From Terribacillus aidingensis (GTDB lineage: Bacteria > Bacillota > Bacilli > Bacillales > Amphibacillaceae): a DNA stretch of 64,000 bases. The DNA is taken from positions 2,576,001-2,640,000 of the forward strand of contig NZ_CP159996.1 in NCBI RefSeq assembly GCF_040703035.1, written 5' to 3'. The position numbers were made by a program, and so were the translations under genes. The number at the start of each line of letters is the position of its first letter. Positions within the stretch are counted from its first letter, which is position 1. Below the pieces are notes generated by a model, which saw nothing but the letters and a program-made list of their open reading frames with translations, was not told where the DNA came from and did not search any database. Shown in pieces: positions 55,715-61,838 of this stretch.

Positions 55715-57973
55715 ATGCAAACTTCAGAAATCATTTGGCTAATCGCTTCCACAGTCATTCTGCTCGTTCTATATGGGTTGGCCCGGAAACATCTAGCTGC
55801 TAAGTATTTGCTGCTGGCTGCCTTTCTTGGTATCAACCTTGTCTACTTGATTTGGCGGACGGCATTCACATTGCCGACAGTCGGGATACTCAGTCTGATA
55901 GTCGGAATCCTGCTGCTGGTGACGGAATGGGCTGGATTTTTACAATCCGTCGTTTTCACCATCCTCTCCTGGAAGCCGTTCAGGCGGAAAACCATTCCGC
56001 TTTCGGAATTCAAGGAACTGCCGACAGTCGATGTATATATTGCCACTTACAATGAACCAGCAGATCTTCTAAAGCGGACGATTGCAGCGAGCCAAATGAT
56101 GACTTATCCGCAGGACAAGCTCAAGGTCTATGTCTGCGATGATGGAAGACGAGCAGATATCCGGCAATTGACTGAATCCATGGGTGCTTACTATTTAGAT
56201 CGACCGGATAATAAGCATCAAAAAGCCGGGAATCTGAACCATGCGATGACTAAAACAGACGGCGAGATCATCGTCACGATGGATGCTGATATGGTACCGC
56301 GCGCCAATTTCCTTGAACGCACGCTCGGCTACTTTACCGATAATAAAGTCTCATTCGTCCAGGCACCGCAAGTATTCTATAATGCAGACGCATTCCAGTA
56401 CAATCTGTTCTTCGAGGATAATATTACGAATGAACAAGACTTCTTCATGCGCCGTTTGGAGGAAGGAAAGGATCGCTTCAATGCAACGATGTATGTCGGA
56501 AGCAATGCTTTGTTCCGCCGAACTGCATTGGAGGAAATCGGGGGTTTCGCAACGGGCGTCATAACCGAGGATATGGCAACAGGCATGCTTCTCCAGACAA
56601 ATGGGCAAAAAACAGTCTTTGTGAATGAAGCATTAGCTGTTGGCTTATCCCCTGAAACGTACGCCGACCTTCTAAAGCAGCGCGACCGCTGGTGCCGAGG
56701 CAATATCCAAGTCATCCGTAAATGGAATCCGCTCACAATCAAAGGTCTGAGCTTCATGCAGCGCTTGCTGTACATGGATGGAATACATTATTGGTTCTTC
56801 GGTATCTATAAGATGGTGTATTTACTGGCACCATTGCTGTTCCTGCTGTTCTCCATCTATAGTCTGCAAACCGATTTCTCGACTCTATTGCTGTTCTGGC
56901 TGCCGGCGTTCCTATCGTCACAGCTCGCGTTCCGCCGCATGGCAGATAACAAAAGGACGACGATTTGGAGTCACATTTATGAGGTGGCACTCGCCCCTTA
57001 CATGGCTGTATCTGTTCTAACGGAACTATTCTTCCGAAAATCGATCAAATTCAATGTTACCCGCAAAGGAATAGTGAATAATCGCCGGCATTTTCTCTGG
57101 CGGACAAGCACACCATATGTGATTCTGCTTGCAATGAGCATTGCTAGTATGATTATGATCGGAATAGATTTGTTTACCCCTATACAGATTTACGAAAATG
57201 TCGAAATGCTCTATATCAATATTTTCTGGGTGCTATACAATGCTGTCGCACTTGTCATGGCTTTGATCATTTCGGTGGAACGGCCGCGCTTCCGAGAAGC
57301 AGAGCGCTTTGATGTGACGCTGGAAGCAGAGCTTCTGAATAGTCTTGATGAGAAGAAGCATCCCATACGAATCATTGACTTAAGCGAATATGGCGCAAGG
57401 CTGGAACTGCTTGATGCAAAAGCAGCCCATCTGCTGTCAGCCGGAAGTCCGCTGACGCTTTCCTCAGGTCCGCTGCAAGGCTTGAAGCTTCACAAGCATT
57501 GGGTTTCCCAGCAAGGAAAAAGCTATTATGCAGGCGTATCCTTCCAGGATGTCACGCAGGAACAGTACCGTGCCCTTATCAAACTCCTGTTCGTCGATGC
57601 ACCAGACATATATACGAGCAGGGAATATGTAAATTCAACACTATTGCATGCAGTTTCCCGCTTCTTCCGTCAAACACAAGTCGAACCAAAACAATCCGAG
57701 CGGCAGAGCATCAGGGAAACAATCTCGGTTCCTGGCGTCCTCTATTTTGCTGATACTGGTAAAATAGAAACCACTCTTATTGATTACAGTCTGAGCGGCT
57801 GCCAAATCGAACTGAAGAAACCGATTAAACCAGGTCAAGTACTGCGTCTGCACGCCAATCACAACAGCTTCCGCGAAAGTGATGTACGTGTCCAATGGGT
57901 GCAAAAACGCGGACGAAAATATTTAGCAGGTTTGCGATTCCTGACCGAGACAGCTGAATCGGATACTGCGTAA
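55715..57973 (+). CDS. Cellulose-synthase-like GT2 with two PilZ-like domains
   Basis: 752 residues. Four N-terminal helices lead to a family 2 glycosyltransferase with CDDGRR (about 141), MDADMVPR (about 189), VITEDMATG (about 283) and QRDRWCRGN (about 322), the BcsA D, DxD, TED and QxxRW set. More helices span about 350-515. A PilZ-like domain follows (RPRFREAERFDV near 521, IDLSEYGARLEL near 553), then a second one (ERQSIRETISV near 661, IDYSLSGCQIEL near 689), each with the basic and D-x-S-x-x-G parts that bind c-di-GMP. No bcsB homologue is beside it. The polymer is not defined by sequence. Confidence 0.88.
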   Translation: MQTSEIIWLIASTVILLVLYGLARKHLAAKYLLLAAFLGINLVYLIWRTAFTLPTVGILSLIVGILLLVTEWAGFLQSVVFTILSWKPFRRKTIPLSEFKELPTVDVYIATYNEPADLLKRTIAASQMMTYPQDKLKVYVCDDGRRADIRQLTESMGAYYLDRPDNKHQKAGNLNHAMTKTDGEIIVTMDADMVPRANFLERTLGYFTDNKVSFVQAPQVFYNADAFQYNLFFEDNITNEQDFFMRRLEEGKDRFNATMYVGSNALFRRTALEEIGGFATGVITEDMATGMLLQTNGQKTVFVNEALAVGLSPETYADLLKQRDRWCRGNIQVIRKWNPLTIKGLSFMQRLLYMDGIHYWFFGIYKMVYLLAPLLFLLFSIYSLQTDFSTLLLFWLPAFLSSQLAFRRMADNKRTTIWSHIYEVALAPYMAVSVLTELFFRKSIKFNVTRKGIVNNRRHFLWRTSTPYVILLAMSIASMIMIGIDLFTPIQIYENVEMLYINIFWVLYNAVALVMALIISVERPRFREAERFDVTLEAELLNSLDEKKHPIRIIDLSEYGARLELLDAKAAHLLSAGSPLTLSSGPLQGLKLHKHWVSQQGKSYYAGVSFQDVTQEQYRALIKLLFVDAPDIYTSREYVNSTLLHAVSRFFRQTQVEPKQSERQSIRETISVPGVLYFADTGKIETTLIDYSLSGCQIELKKPIKPGQVLRLHANHNSFRESDVRVQWVQKRGRKYLAGLRFLTETAESDTA

Positions 57974-57980
57974 ATAAATA

Positions 57981-58008
57981 TGGACATCTAAACAATAAAT
58001 GATATATT
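57981..58008 (+). promoter_or_regulatory. Sigma-A promoter of the ydaK-type operon
   Basis: TGGACA, 16 bp, TATATT gives an expected start of transcription near 58014. The leader from there to the first ATG is about 120 nt and contains the riboswitch candidate. Confidence 0.6.
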
Positions 58009-58013
58009 ATGAC

Positions 58014-58095
58014 AATAGAAAATGAAGCTTCGACTCTTTATCTGTATGTGGGCACTTGGGTAAAGAAGAGCTACTAGTGCAACCGCCATTTTATT
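58014..58095 (+). ncRNA. Candidate c-di-GMP-II-type riboswitch
   Basis: GGGCACTTG (58050-58058) and, 17 nt later, AGTGCAACCG (58076-58085) repeat the strongly conserved 3' half of the class II c-di-GMP aptamer as I remember it from the Clostridium acetobutylicum structure. GCACT/AGTGC form its stem. A basal helix AATA-(GA)-AAATG (58014-58024) with CATTTTATT (58087-58095) closes the element at the right place. The 5' half (AAGCTTCGACTC...) does not resemble the class II sequence, and the usual pseudoknot partner for AACC is not obvious, so it may be a variant or a coincidence. Folding the basal helix would destroy the terminator at 58081-58102, predicting gene activation by ligand. Confidence 0.5.
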
Positions 58096-58108
58096 GGCGG
58101 TTGTTTTT
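58081..58108 (+). terminator. Intrinsic terminator in the ydaK leader
   Basis: AACCGCCA and TGGCGGTT form an 8-bp stem with a 6-base loop, followed by GTTTTTT. It lies after a promoter and 28 bp before the first gene, so it can act as an attenuator. Confidence 0.85.
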
Positions 58109-58135
58109 TATTTTGAATAAGAAAGTAGGTTTTAC

Positions 58136-58909
58136 ATGCAACTCCGGATCTTGTTGACATTTCTTTTATGTAGTTTTATGGCATTATCCTTTACAGCATC
58201 GTCCTCTATTCCTTTGACCGATGGTTCAATTCTGCTTTTAGCCATTTTTTCCATCCACGCCGGAAGCTTTGCCAGACAATTTATCACGTTGCTTATGCTT
58301 AGTCTTTCTTTTGGTTTCTTTCTACTTTTCTATGCATTATTCACGCATGCATCTTTGACAGAACAGGTTTATTATTTGCTTCGCCATATTCTCGTAACTG
58401 TTAGTATGGTTTTAATTTGGCTTACCTATGGAATAACATCACGCTATCGTAACGAAAATATAGCATTAAAAGAGAAGATCCAAGCACTTGAAAAATATGC
58501 TGGTTCTTCCCAATTACTAACTTTGACTGAATTTAAGAGTCGTGTGAAGTTGATTTCGACCGGGACGAAACGACGTAATGAACAAAATTATTATGTTTTT
58601 GCTTCCATCGTTACTCCTGATAAAGTGCTAGAAACAACAAACTCTATTTCCCACATTGTAAGTGAGGGGATTTTAAGCTCGATACGCGCCGAATTCGACT
58701 TAGTCACACAAGTAAAAGAAGAGCAATTCCTTATCTTCCTTCAGAACACCAATGAAGCAGGGTGTCAAATCGTAATTGACAGATTGATGGGTAAACTTCG
58801 GAATCAATTTAATCTAATTGATCCTCCTCTCATATGTGAAACTGTACTGGAGGAAGAGATAGAATCTATCTTAGAGATAACCCAGCCATTCAAAGGAGCA
58901 GCAGGATGA
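58136..58909 (+). CDS. ydaK: Membrane protein with degenerate GGDEF domain (YdaK-like)
   Basis: 257 residues. Four hydrophobic helices fill residues 1-102, followed by a short helix and a domain of diguanylate-cyclase shape: LLTLTEFKSRVKLI near 130, FDLVTQVKEEQFLIFLQNTNEAGCQIVIDRLMGKLRNQF near 190-228. The active-site GGDEF is replaced by VKEEQF, so no cyclase activity is expected. In B. subtilis YdaK is such a degenerate protein and binds c-di-GMP to switch on the YdaLMN polymer system. Overlap of 4 bp with the next gene supports a functional unit. Confidence 0.8.
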   Translation: MQLRILLTFLLCSFMALSFTASSSIPLTDGSILLLAIFSIHAGSFARQFITLLMLSLSFGFFLLFYALFTHASLTEQVYYLLRHILVTVSMVLIWLTYGITSRYRNENIALKEKIQALEKYAGSSQLLTLTEFKSRVKLISTGTKRRNEQNYYVFASIVTPDKVLETTNSISHIVSEGILSSIRAEFDLVTQVKEEQFLIFLQNTNEAGCQIVIDRLMGKLRNQFNLIDPPLICETVLEEEIESILEITQPFKGAAG

Positions 58910-60135
58910 AGATTATTCTAGTAGCAGTTATGGCCTTTTTCTGGATTCTACTCATCTATTATTCCATTCTTACAATCGCCGGCGTTTTACAGCGATTGAA
59001 AAGGAAAGAAGAAATTACTTTACCGTCCTATCCTTCTATTGCTGTTTTAATTCCTGCGCATAATGAAGGAGTCGTGATAAAGCAGACTTTAGAAGCCATG
59101 ATTCGACTAAAATACCCAGGAGCATTGGATGTCTATGTTTTGGATGATTCCTCTACAGATGACACAGCCGAGATCATTCAAAAATTCAGCAGTACTTTCT
59201 CCCGTATACATTATTTAAAAGTCCCTCCTGGGTCTCCGAAAGGAAAATCAAGAGTACTTAATTATGGGTTATCTGTAACGACATCCGATTATTTCATTGT
59301 CTTTGATGCAGATAATCAGCCCGCTGAAGACAGTGTGTTGGAATTGATTCACGCTGCAGAACGTACTCCTGACGCTGGGGGAGCAGTAGGATATGTTAAG
59401 ACTATCAATGCAGACCGAAATGTATTGACCAGAATGATCTCGATCGAATTTCAGGTCTTTCAGCTATTAATGCAAAGTGGTCGATGGAAGATGTTTAAAA
59501 CAGGTTCCCTGGCAGGAACGAACATGCTGCTTCGAAGAAGTGTTCTGCAAGAAGCTGGGGGGTATGACCTGTATGCTCTTGCCGAGGATGCAGAACTTAC
59601 TGTTAGGCTGACGGCTTTAGGGTGGAAATTACCTGTTGTTCACCACTCGAGAACATGGGAACAGGAACCAGAAAAGATTAGTATCTTTGTCAGACAGCGT
59701 ACAAGATGGCTGACAGGTAATATCTATCTATTGGAGAAATCGTTTCATGAATGGAGTTATTGGAAAGGAAAGACGTTTGTCCATAGCTTCCAGCATGTTT
59801 TGACTTATTTATTATTTGTATTAATGCTGCTATTTTCAAATACATGGTTCATTCTAAGCTTACTAGGAGTCAACCTGCCCGATTTTGAATCTCCTTTGCT
59901 GTTGTTCTGGTTTATGAGCTATGTAGTCTATACTGCTCAGGTTGTCAGTGCAATGGTGCTTGAAAGGACAATTACACCATTTAATGTACTTATCGGCTTA
60001 ATCATGTATTTCACTTATGCTCAGATCTTCCTGTTATTGCTTTTACGAAGTGGACTTTCTTATATATGGAGCAGGCTGACGAAGCAAACTATTAAGTGGG
60101 ATAAAACAGAAAGGTTTAAGGATGATGCAGCATAA
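58906..60135 (+). CDS. ydaM: Glycosyltransferase family 2 (YdaM-like)
   Basis: 409 residues. A single N-terminal helix (about 3-25) is followed by a GT2 domain: VLIPAHNEGVVIKQ near 47, VLDDSSTDDTAEII near 78, VFDADNQPAEDS near 130, LAEDAELTVR near 225, and RQRTRWLTGNIY near 263. Two or three helices follow from about 300. This is the synthase of a processive polysaccharide, similar to B. subtilis YdaM. It is coupled to the YdaK-like protein by an ATGA overlap and to the next gene by 14 bp. Confidence 0.88.
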   Translation: MKIILVAVMAFFWILLIYYSILTIAGVLQRLKRKEEITLPSYPSIAVLIPAHNEGVVIKQTLEAMIRLKYPGALDVYVLDDSSTDDTAEIIQKFSSTFSRIHYLKVPPGSPKGKSRVLNYGLSVTTSDYFIVFDADNQPAEDSVLELIHAAERTPDAGGAVGYVKTINADRNVLTRMISIEFQVFQLLMQSGRWKMFKTGSLAGTNMLLRRSVLQEAGGYDLYALAEDAELTVRLTALGWKLPVVHHSRTWEQEPEKISIFVRQRTRWLTGNIYLLEKSFHEWSYWKGKTFVHSFQHVLTYLLFVLMLLFSNTWFILSLLGVNLPDFESPLLLFWFMSYVVYTAQVVSAMVLERTITPFNVLIGLIMYFTYAQIFLLLLLRSGLSYIWSRLTKQTIKWDKTERFKDDAA

Positions 60136-61165
60136 AAGTTATGTTGCTAAAATACTTTTGCTGCTGATTTGTAGCCTTCTTCTGTTTTTAAATTTCTCTT
60201 CTTCTGTTGACCAGGAAACAGTTACTAGTACCGTCAAACAACAATACAAGAACAAAGAAGGTTTCATTGCTAGCTATGGAGATGGAGAACGCGACACTAG
60301 TCCTATCCTTCTTGAAAGCCTCGGGCAATACATGGAATATTTACTCCTAGTCGGAGATAGCCAAGAATTTGAGGAGCAGTTTCTCCTGCTTCAATCTAAC
60401 TTCACAGTCAATACCAATGAGGGCATCTTTCTAAAGTGGCAGCTTGAAGAAGATGTAACTGCAAATGCTTCAGTAGACGATTACCGGATAATAAGAACAC
60501 TGCTAAGAGGGGGAGAACAGTTTCATAATTCCTCTTACACTAATTTTGCAGGACAGATATGGGATACAATGAATAAAACACAAACTGTTAATGGTTTAAT
60601 CGTTGATTTCTATGATTGGTCATCACAACAAAGAACATCCGAGATTCATCTCAGTTATATAGATTATGATGTTCTGGAGAAGCTGCAAGCTTCCAAATTA
60701 CCTAGATACAAGCAAATCTTGTCAGATGGCCTGACAGACAAGATTTTTTTCAATGAAATCTACAACCCGGAAAACAATAGCTACCAAACAGCAAATGCAG
60801 AGACGGTAAATATGATTGATCAATTCTTGATTGCTATTCAGTATGCAGAAAGTACACATGAAAAACCGAAAAGTTTTCATGATTGGGTTCAAACTCAAAT
60901 GCAAAATAATGGTATATTATATGGAAGCTATAACCGTAACACCGGCAAGCCCGTAGTTAATTATGAATCTAGTGCTGTATATGCGCTTGCTTTGATTTAT
61001 AGTTTAACAGTAGATGATCAGCAAATGTCCAAGACTCTATATAGCCAGCTGCAGAAACAATCACCCTTGCAGGCTGACCCAAATTACAATGATATCCATT
61101 TTTTTGATTATATGTATGCTTCTTATGCAGCAACACTATATAAAGAACAAAAAAGCAGTCGTTGA
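60122..61165 (+). CDS. ydaJ: GH8-like hydrolase (YdaJ-like)
   Basis: 347 residues. The N-terminal helix (about 10-26) is a signal peptide or anchor. The body shows the (alpha/alpha)6 pattern of GH8-type proteins: GFIASYGDGERDTSPILLESLGQYMEYLLL near 46-75, SVDDYRIIRTLLRGGEQF near 117 with a D-x-R of the family, and NYESSAVYALALIYSL near 279. In B. subtilis YdaJ lies at the start of ydaJKLMN; here it comes last. A role in trimming or releasing the polymer is inferred from this context. Confidence 0.78.
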   Translation: MMQHKSYVAKILLLLICSLLLFLNFSSSVDQETVTSTVKQQYKNKEGFIASYGDGERDTSPILLESLGQYMEYLLLVGDSQEFEEQFLLLQSNFTVNTNEGIFLKWQLEEDVTANASVDDYRIIRTLLRGGEQFHNSSYTNFAGQIWDTMNKTQTVNGLIVDFYDWSSQQRTSEIHLSYIDYDVLEKLQASKLPRYKQILSDGLTDKIFFNEIYNPENNSYQTANAETVNMIDQFLIAIQYAESTHEKPKSFHDWVQTQMQNNGILYGSYNRNTGKPVVNYESSAVYALALIYSLTVDDQQMSKTLYSQLQKQSPLQADPNYNDIHFFDYMYASYAATLYKEQKSSR

Positions 61166-61175
61166 CTGCTTTTTT
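61149..61175. terminator. Shared terminator between convergent genes
   Basis: AAAAAAGCAGTC and GACTGCTTTTTT form a 12-bp stem with a 3-base loop, directly between the stops at 61165 and 61176. Confidence 0.85.
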
Positions 61176-61838
61176 TTATCCTTTAATATATGCATACAGC
61201 TCCTGCGTCTCTGTTTCAGCACCAAACGCACGCGTTGCCCCCCAAATTTTATCCACTTCTGCTCCATTGATTTCTGCGTCCATATCATGAAAAATCCGAT
61301 GCACATAACGCAGACTGTTCAGGTCCGCGCTGTCTGTTGCGATTCGCATGAACGCTTCAGTGTTCCACATATCGTTTACAGCTTCTGATGGAGCAAAGCC
61401 TTCTGTTCGCAGCCTTTCGACATCCTTCTGCAGCTGCTGCCATTCCTCTGATTGAGCCAGATAGTCGATATCTACATTATCGATGTGTCCCCAGCCAGTG
61501 AGATCATTCAAATATGCATGCTGGTCACTGATGATTTGTTTGACCAGCTCTTCATTCTGATAGGCAACTTGTTCATCATAGACGTCGTATGTGAACGTAG
61601 ACAGGAAATCCTTTGTATCGCCAGAAAGTTCTTCCAGCTTGGATGCCCCATCTCCTTTCTCTACTGGCTTCAATTGTTTATCTTCCGGCATTTCAGCTGG
61701 CAATTGTTCCTGCTGCGGTGCCTCATTTTCTTTCCCGCTGGCTGTATCGTTTTCTTCCTGAGATAGGAAGAAGTAGATGCCAGTACCTGTTATTGCAAGT
61801 ACACAAATACATAATAATGTTATAAAAAATGCCTTCAC
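61176..61838 (-). CDS. Hypothetical signal-anchored protein
   Basis: 220 residues from GTG 61838, eight bases after AGAGGAG. One helix (about 4-25) anchors a polar linker (about 30-65, rich in Glu, Gln, Pro) and an all-helical domain with ELVKQIISDQHAYLNDLTGWGHIDNVDIDYLAQSEEWQQL near 95-135 and a WGATRAFGAETETQ end. This resembles proteins annotated DUF6241 in Bacillaceae, from memory only. No catalytic motif is seen. Confidence 0.68.
   Translation of the reverse strand: MKAFFITLLCICVLAITGTGIYFFLSQEENDTASGKENEAPQQEQLPAEMPEDKQLKPVEKGDGASKLEELSGDTKDFLSTFTYDVYDEQVAYQNEELVKQIISDQHAYLNDLTGWGHIDNVDIDYLAQSEEWQQLQKDVERLRTEGFAPSEAVNDMWNTEAFMRIATDSADLNSLRYVHRIFHDMDAEINGAEVDKIWGATRAFGAETETQELYAYIKG

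Follow-up and report, generated by a model that had tools for sequence, protein, structure and literature searches.

In C. difficile, all four class II c-di-GMP riboswitches are described as ON switches, and the one upstream of pilA1 acts via a terminator (PMC6200980, PMC6366702). Separately, the ydaJKLMN operon of B. subtilis has been associated with a c-di-GMP-linked polysaccharide (PMC5422440, PMC7064775, PMC13274460). Its transcription is reported to be SigB-dependent, and the word riboswitch is absent from the main text of that report (PMC13274460). In Listeria, PssE is presented as a degenerate-GGDEF c-di-GMP receptor, and the same account describes this genus as being without identifiable c-di-GMP riboswitches (PMC4125290). 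For both YdaK and PssE, an RxxD motif is reported that precedes the degenerate motif by five residues (PMC5422440, PMC4125290). In this study, we analysed a 64-kb stretch of the Terribacillus aidingensis genome (hereafter, the window; G000:C1:2576001-2640000). We found that a promoter, a riboswitch, a degenerate-GGDEF gene, a GT2 synthase gene and a PssZ-like hydrolase gene form one cassette of about 3.2 kb (Table 1). Our main conclusion, to which we assign a probability of roughly nine in ten, is that a canonical class II c-di-GMP riboswitch serves as a transcriptional ON switch for this three-gene exopolysaccharide cassette. The aptamer, the terminator, their mutual exclusivity, the recurrence of the arrangement and the unity of the cassette are read directly from the sequence.

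Table 1. Features of the riboswitch cassette and of the adjoining bcsA-like gene, in window coordinates.
Feature	Coordinates	Strand	Basis or detail
BcsA-like synthase with PilZ, directly upstream, outside the riboswitch cassette	55715..57973	+	PF07238, E 1.1e-15
Promoter: -35 TGGACA, 16-nt spacer, -10 TATATT with preceding TG	57981..58008	+	Promoter scan
Class II c-di-GMP riboswitch aptamer (RF01786), complete	58014..58097	+	Rfam covariance match
P1 5' strand	58014..58024	+	Six standard pairs, 58019-58024 with 58087-58092
GGGCAC	58050..58055	+	Conserved in the RF01786 alignment
Intrinsic terminator, stem 58079-58104 followed by a U-tract; AACCG and the initial P1 3'-strand bases fall in its 5' arm	58079..58113	+	
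C-AACCG-C, putative ligand-binding strand (3Q3Z C68 to position 74)	58080..58086	+	Contact list as given in PMC7288161
YdaK-like membrane protein, degenerate GGDEF domain (KEEQF replacing GGDEF; R184-x-x-x-D188)	58136..58909	+	
GT2 polysaccharide synthase	58906..60135	+	PF13641, E 1.1e-30
PssZ-like glycoside hydrolase, GH8 fold	60122..61165	+	Model pLDDT 91.9

A preliminary description of this locus had proposed a class II c-di-GMP aptamer, to be checked by a covariance search in which the lack of any score would speak against it. The search returned a full-length match to RF01786 (c-di-GMP-II) at 58014-58097, with 68.8 bits against a gathering cut-off of 53.5 bits (E 2.5e-13, model positions 1-84 of 84), which bears out the class assignment. 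The match outscores the overlapping clan member and is the only one over a gathering score in a cmscan of the 64-kb window against Rfam; no further c-di-GMP-II copy was found in the whole genome (3.58 Mb, single contig). The GCAC of the conserved GGGCAC presumably forms the pseudoknot with GUGC at 58077-58080, by analogy with the known class. Folded alone, 58014-58097 shows no gain in stability over shuffled sequence (z 0.27), and the top-ranked structure differs from the aptamer fold. Secondary-structure models often miss the aptamer fold of pseudoknotted RNAs, and this modelling result does not help the riboswitch case. By its sequence, the element is a canonical class II riboswitch, ordinary as an RNA class, with c-di-GMP as its expected ligand.

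The aptamer runs into an intrinsic terminator with a stem of 10 pairs, which ends 31 nt before the ydaK ATG (58136). A simple terminator scan found one such site against 0.6 expected, which is weak by itself. The segment 58078-58116 folds at -18.0 kcal/mol (z -6.1), and none of 200 shuffles was equally stable. P1 and the terminator are mutually exclusive, as the terminator stem incorporates AACCG as well as some bases of the P1 3' strand. In a secondary-structure model that holds neither ligand nor pseudoknot, the mean terminator pair probability reaches 0.99 once 90 nt have been made, P1 then stands at 0.00, and P1 can be imposed only at a cost of 17.5 kcal/mol. The terminator is therefore expected to prevail at equilibrium, so that the switch must be kinetic. 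Moreover, because the terminator 5' arm takes in AACCG and part of P1, bound c-di-GMP should block termination. The preliminary description had anticipated an overlapping terminator that excludes P1, and the six standard P1 pairs indeed lie within the strands it named; its ON switch stands, as a prediction, on this same sharing of strands.

We propose that, in cells without the ligand, the nascent RNA would form the strong terminator and transcription would stop before ydaK. If c-di-GMP binds before the terminator 3' arm emerges, AACCG would be held in the binding pocket and P1 would close. The ligand-bound aptamer would then block the terminator, and RNA polymerase would continue into ydaK. 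Ligand binding, the ON direction, the kinetic timing and the effect on polysaccharide are the parts of this scheme that we infer.

Judging from promoter spacing, transcription is predicted to start at about 58014-58016, where the aptamer begins. A single copy of the exact promoter pattern is present in the 64-kb window, where 0.01 would be expected, the pattern being taken from the site itself, and a general promoter scan found three promoter-like sites against 1.2 expected. As evidence, the scan alone is weak. The promoter, which had also been proposed before, is better backed by the identical hexamers and spacing in two relatives, G007 and G008, the latter of which has no upstream bcsA. In the window, the promoter begins 8 nt past the end of bcsA, and the terminator scan showed no terminator between them; therefore, the riboswitch should gate read-through transcripts from bcsA as well.

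The genes behind the leader agree with the ydaK-type polysaccharide operon suggested earlier as the target, since a GT2 synthase and a GH8-type hydrolase stand beside the degenerate-GGDEF gene. The best NCBIfam model of the synthase is PgaC/IcaA, with a score far under the cut-off. For the hydrolase, the best PDB match is 6r2m (Listeria PssZ), with TM-scores of 0.80/0.89 and a profile match of E 6.8e-82. In the BcsA-like protein, RPRFR and DLSEYG match by eye the RxxxR and DxSxxG motifs given in PMC7288161. Together with the PilZ match, these motifs suggest that a c-di-GMP-responsive synthase probably adjoins the cassette on its outside.

The YdaK-like protein has membrane helices within residues 2-122, followed by a GGDEF-like fold (model pLDDT 79.5, pTM 0.47), and gave no Pfam match. 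Foldseek returned 15 PDB matches (E up to 0.001) with probability 1.00 to GGDEF proteins and low TM-scores (0.2-0.5); their titles name GGDEF or diguanylate-cyclase proteins, SadC, or PA3702, which we take to be WspR. The protein thus combines membrane helices with a degenerate GGDEF domain. The I-site RxxD is absent from its usual place five residues before the degenerate motif: D188 occupies the expected position, and R184 lies one residue farther off. An alignment of 15 homologues shows both residues of this RxxxD in every row. The motif is also found in 29 of the 30 rows of the order-level set, the window included, the remaining row being a partial match that ends before it. This register lowers the claim that the protein belongs with the YdaK/PssE receptors, and leaves the claim of a similar function where it was. 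Because R and D stand in a shifted register, it is uncertain whether the YdaK-like protein binds c-di-GMP, and hence whether one messenger acts at two levels. As a point in favour of our main conclusion, the genome yields 10 GGDEF matches, spread over 9 places, of which 8 are uninterrupted. At G000:C1:2413419-2413879, one GGDEF gene is split into two neighbouring matches, one of which contains a stop.

We found a c-di-GMP-II match in 86 of the 159 genomes of the window's family and a YdaK homologue in 17. Judged by position, riboswitch and YdaK gene are neighbours in 4 of these 17, all of them Terribacillus; a rescan of 12 family-level YdaK loci, which left L052 aside, revealed no class II riboswitch. 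For the order-level set, 397 genomes were drawn evenly from the larger group, and 47 matched the YdaK profile, the weaker matches probably being ordinary GGDEF proteins. The best 30 of the 47 were made into loci, two of which were already known (the window and G136). A class II riboswitch lies directly upstream of the ydaK homologue in 3 of the other 28 (G201, G198 and G506). These represent three further families, and the G201 locus has the same surroundings as L066 from Priestia megaterium CH447_14T. Named genomes provided 11 YdaK loci, among which L067 ends at a contig end. Class II riboswitches occur at L064, L065 and L066, all already counted, class I at the cluster head in P. koreensis (L071), and neither class in 7 of the 11. 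A linkage limited to Terribacillus was considered and rejected after the named-genome and order-level searches had widened the range. In total, 7 of 45 YdaK genomes have an adjacent class II riboswitch. The 38 that show none were counted against our explanation, in a scan of flanks of about 1.5 kb that would miss riboswitches at more distant operon heads.

Conservation of the leader in related genomes, to which the preliminary description had attached weight, is seen in the three other cassette-bearing Terribacillus genomes, and the leader recurs in the three further families. The six distinct ydaK leaders (window, G007, G008, G201, G198 and G506) have a common architecture. In five of them, 8 to 11 consecutive pairs form a stem that starts at the core AACC; the stem of G008 is shorter (6 bp), yet it takes the contact bases C71 and G72 (Rfam numbering) as well as P1 bases. 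Terminator pairs 5, 6, 8 and 9 differ on both sides between leaders, in a set of just six sequences. According to the ORF lists, the three-gene order is kept in 9 of 11 homologous loci, L061 and L073 having no ORF of the third type after the synthase, and in 3 of 3 further loci, one of which is the same place as L066.

Within Terribacillus, the cassette behaves as a unit. We compared its site in five cassette-free genomes, G002 to G006, with G001 outside this comparison. In four of them (G002, G004, G005 and G006), homology to the window breaks off at 57969-57980 and sets in again at 61166-61178, the cassette being missing between bcsA and a gene of 223 aa, and G003 has just a 56-nt trace of the bcsA end. 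The site in G005 holds about 8 kb of unrelated DNA with an unidentified ORF of 2079 aa (L132:2229-8465), which marks the interval from bcsA to the 223-aa gene as a variable site of insertion. In G008, on the other hand, the riboswitch is present without bcsA. A transposase gene (HTH_38, rve; L055:7659-8591) lies there between the riboswitch terminator and ydaK, which is frame-broken near codon 40. The operon of G008 looks inactive, and its sequence indicates that the riboswitch-ydaK arrangement is not always kept. Altogether, the absence of the cassette as a unit from relatives and the G008 riboswitch without bcsA indicate that the riboswitch belongs to the cassette and not to bcsA.

Several other readings of the element have to be considered. 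The preliminary description had held that the 5' half is unlike known class II sequences and that the aptamer may be a variant. The 5' half proved to be ordinary: among the capitalised positions of the RF01786 consensus, only U18 and G61 deviate (both C here), and both vary among other family members, C61 being found, for instance, in L011 and L021. A co-variation between these two positions was dropped, as C18 with G61 and A18 with G61 both exist (L005, L024). The contact list for 3Q3Z names 13 nucleotides (PMC7288161), of which 12 are identical in the window aptamer, including A69, A70 and G73, under a register (Rfam position equals PDB position minus 1) inferred from the contact fit, the eight other registers tried giving at most 5 of 13. 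The single mismatch, A74 to C, falls at a position that is unconserved in the consensus. An aptamer with an altered ligand, such as cGAMP, could draw on these three departures. It could also draw on the G73 contact, which is G in 34 of 36 loci and A in the ydaK leaders of G201 (L066:3778-3859) and G198 (L078:2300-2383), where the change may be terminator-driven or may alter the affinity or specificity of ligand binding. Given the retained contacts and a full-length class II match over the cut-off and ahead of its clan member, this variant is unsupported in the window and appears very improbable.

The direction and level of control could be questioned on the grounds that, in C. difficile, riboswitches of the c-di-GMP-I class are described as OFF switches (PMC6200980). 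In addition, the Terribacillus pilin leaders L002, L003, L004, L005 and L007 showed no U-tract terminator, in a scan that also misses the 16-nt hairpin of G008, seen by other means. These leaders may use another expression platform, so the platform is not fixed for the class. Nevertheless, an OFF or a translational switch is highly unlikely at ydaK, where the terminator 5' arm takes up the ligand-binding strand, wholly in five of the six distinct leaders and partly in one. The stem is followed by a U-tract and leaves the ydaK start uncovered, and no separate anti-terminator was present in the computed folds. The location directly 3' of bcsA and the disrupted operon of G008 might further suggest a non-functional element, either a relic or a plain bcsA terminator that scores as an aptamer by chance. 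We consider this extremely improbable, since promoter and aptamer are present without bcsA in G008, bcsA ends without a riboswitch in four relatives, and across families the aptamer is conserved while the terminator changes on both sides of its stem.

A c-di-GMP-II match is present in each of the 10 Terribacillus genomes and exceeds the cut-off in 9. The riboswitch precedes the ydaK cassette in four and sits in a type IV pilus locus in six, and none of the 10 genomes combines both. In the pilus loci, it stands before a recognisable pilin in five cases and beside a broken pilC in G001. Full-length pilC occurs in five genomes, and the four ydaK genomes show weak partial similarity or none. The G001 riboswitch (L010, G001:C2:891656-891737) scores 44.8 bits, below the gathering score, and has changed pseudoknot bases; here, sensor and pilus target seem to decay together. 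A second c-di-GMP-II riboswitch of G002, on the small 115-kb contig C2 (L057:9491-9573), has a terminator of its own and lies ahead of an unknown ORF of 102 aa and behind an ORF of 896 aa. In the trees of ppk and of a transporter gene, the four ydaK genomes fall in three places, which points to several gains or losses. Both genes lie less than 40 kb from the cassette (ppk adjoins it and the transporter is about 35 kb away), and some forks are weakly supported. G009 is conspecific with G007. An exclusion between pilus and ydaK outside Terribacillus was rejected, as G136 and G157 have a pilin-linked riboswitch and a YdaK homologue. In 25 of the 35 fetched c-di-GMP-II loci of the window's family, mostly the best-scoring ones and not a random sample, the next ORF carries a prepilin motif. 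By this count, pilin is a commoner class II target in the family than the polysaccharide operon.

In the literature searched, original class II target lists aside, we found no description of an association between class II riboswitches and ydaK, and in the YdaK papers examined the word riboswitch is absent or appears once in a general introduction. As far as these searches show, the recurrent ydaK target and the alternation between pilus and polysaccharide are new, within a known RNA class. On a more tentative note, the cassette might be a portable unit that brings its own riboswitch, in which the RNA gates synthesis and the YdaK-like RxxxD protein gates activity, as a coincidence gate for one messenger. 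It would be swapped for type IV pili between Terribacillus species as a riboswitch-controlled adhesion output. We regard this extended reading as possible but rather doubtful. Its interest is that the locus provides a clean natural setting in which to ask whether a single second messenger controls one polysaccharide machine through both its transcription and its activity. Since sister species put one riboswitch class to use on either pili or polysaccharide, the exchange of regulated outputs also becomes directly testable. In this sense, the riboswitch is biologically well placed though ordinary as an RNA class.

The closest match for the switch itself is Cdi-2-4 before pilA1 of C. difficile, which is alike in aptamer class and shows what is predicted for the window element, a ligand that prevents termination and the ON direction (PMC6366702, PMC6200980). 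Unlike Cdi-2-4, the element described here has a polysaccharide operon and not a pilin as its target, and its host is Terribacillus. The ydaJKLMN operon of B. subtilis likewise joins a degenerate GGDEF membrane protein, a synthase and a glycoside hydrolase. It comprises five genes, whereas the window locus has three, and YdaK carries RxxD where the window protein has RxxxD, the kinship of the two systems resting on layout and fold. In the pssA-E/PssZ system of Listeria monocytogenes, PssZ provides the nearest solved structure for the product of the third cassette gene, and PssE differs from the window protein by the same RxxD register. Finally, Priestia koreensis has a similar gene cluster under a c-di-GMP riboswitch. 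There, a class I riboswitch (L071:429-525), of an unrelated aptamer class, heads a GH8 - DUF2334 - ydaK - GT2 - PssZ-like cluster, lying before the GH8 gene and about 3.4 kb upstream of the ydaK homologue.
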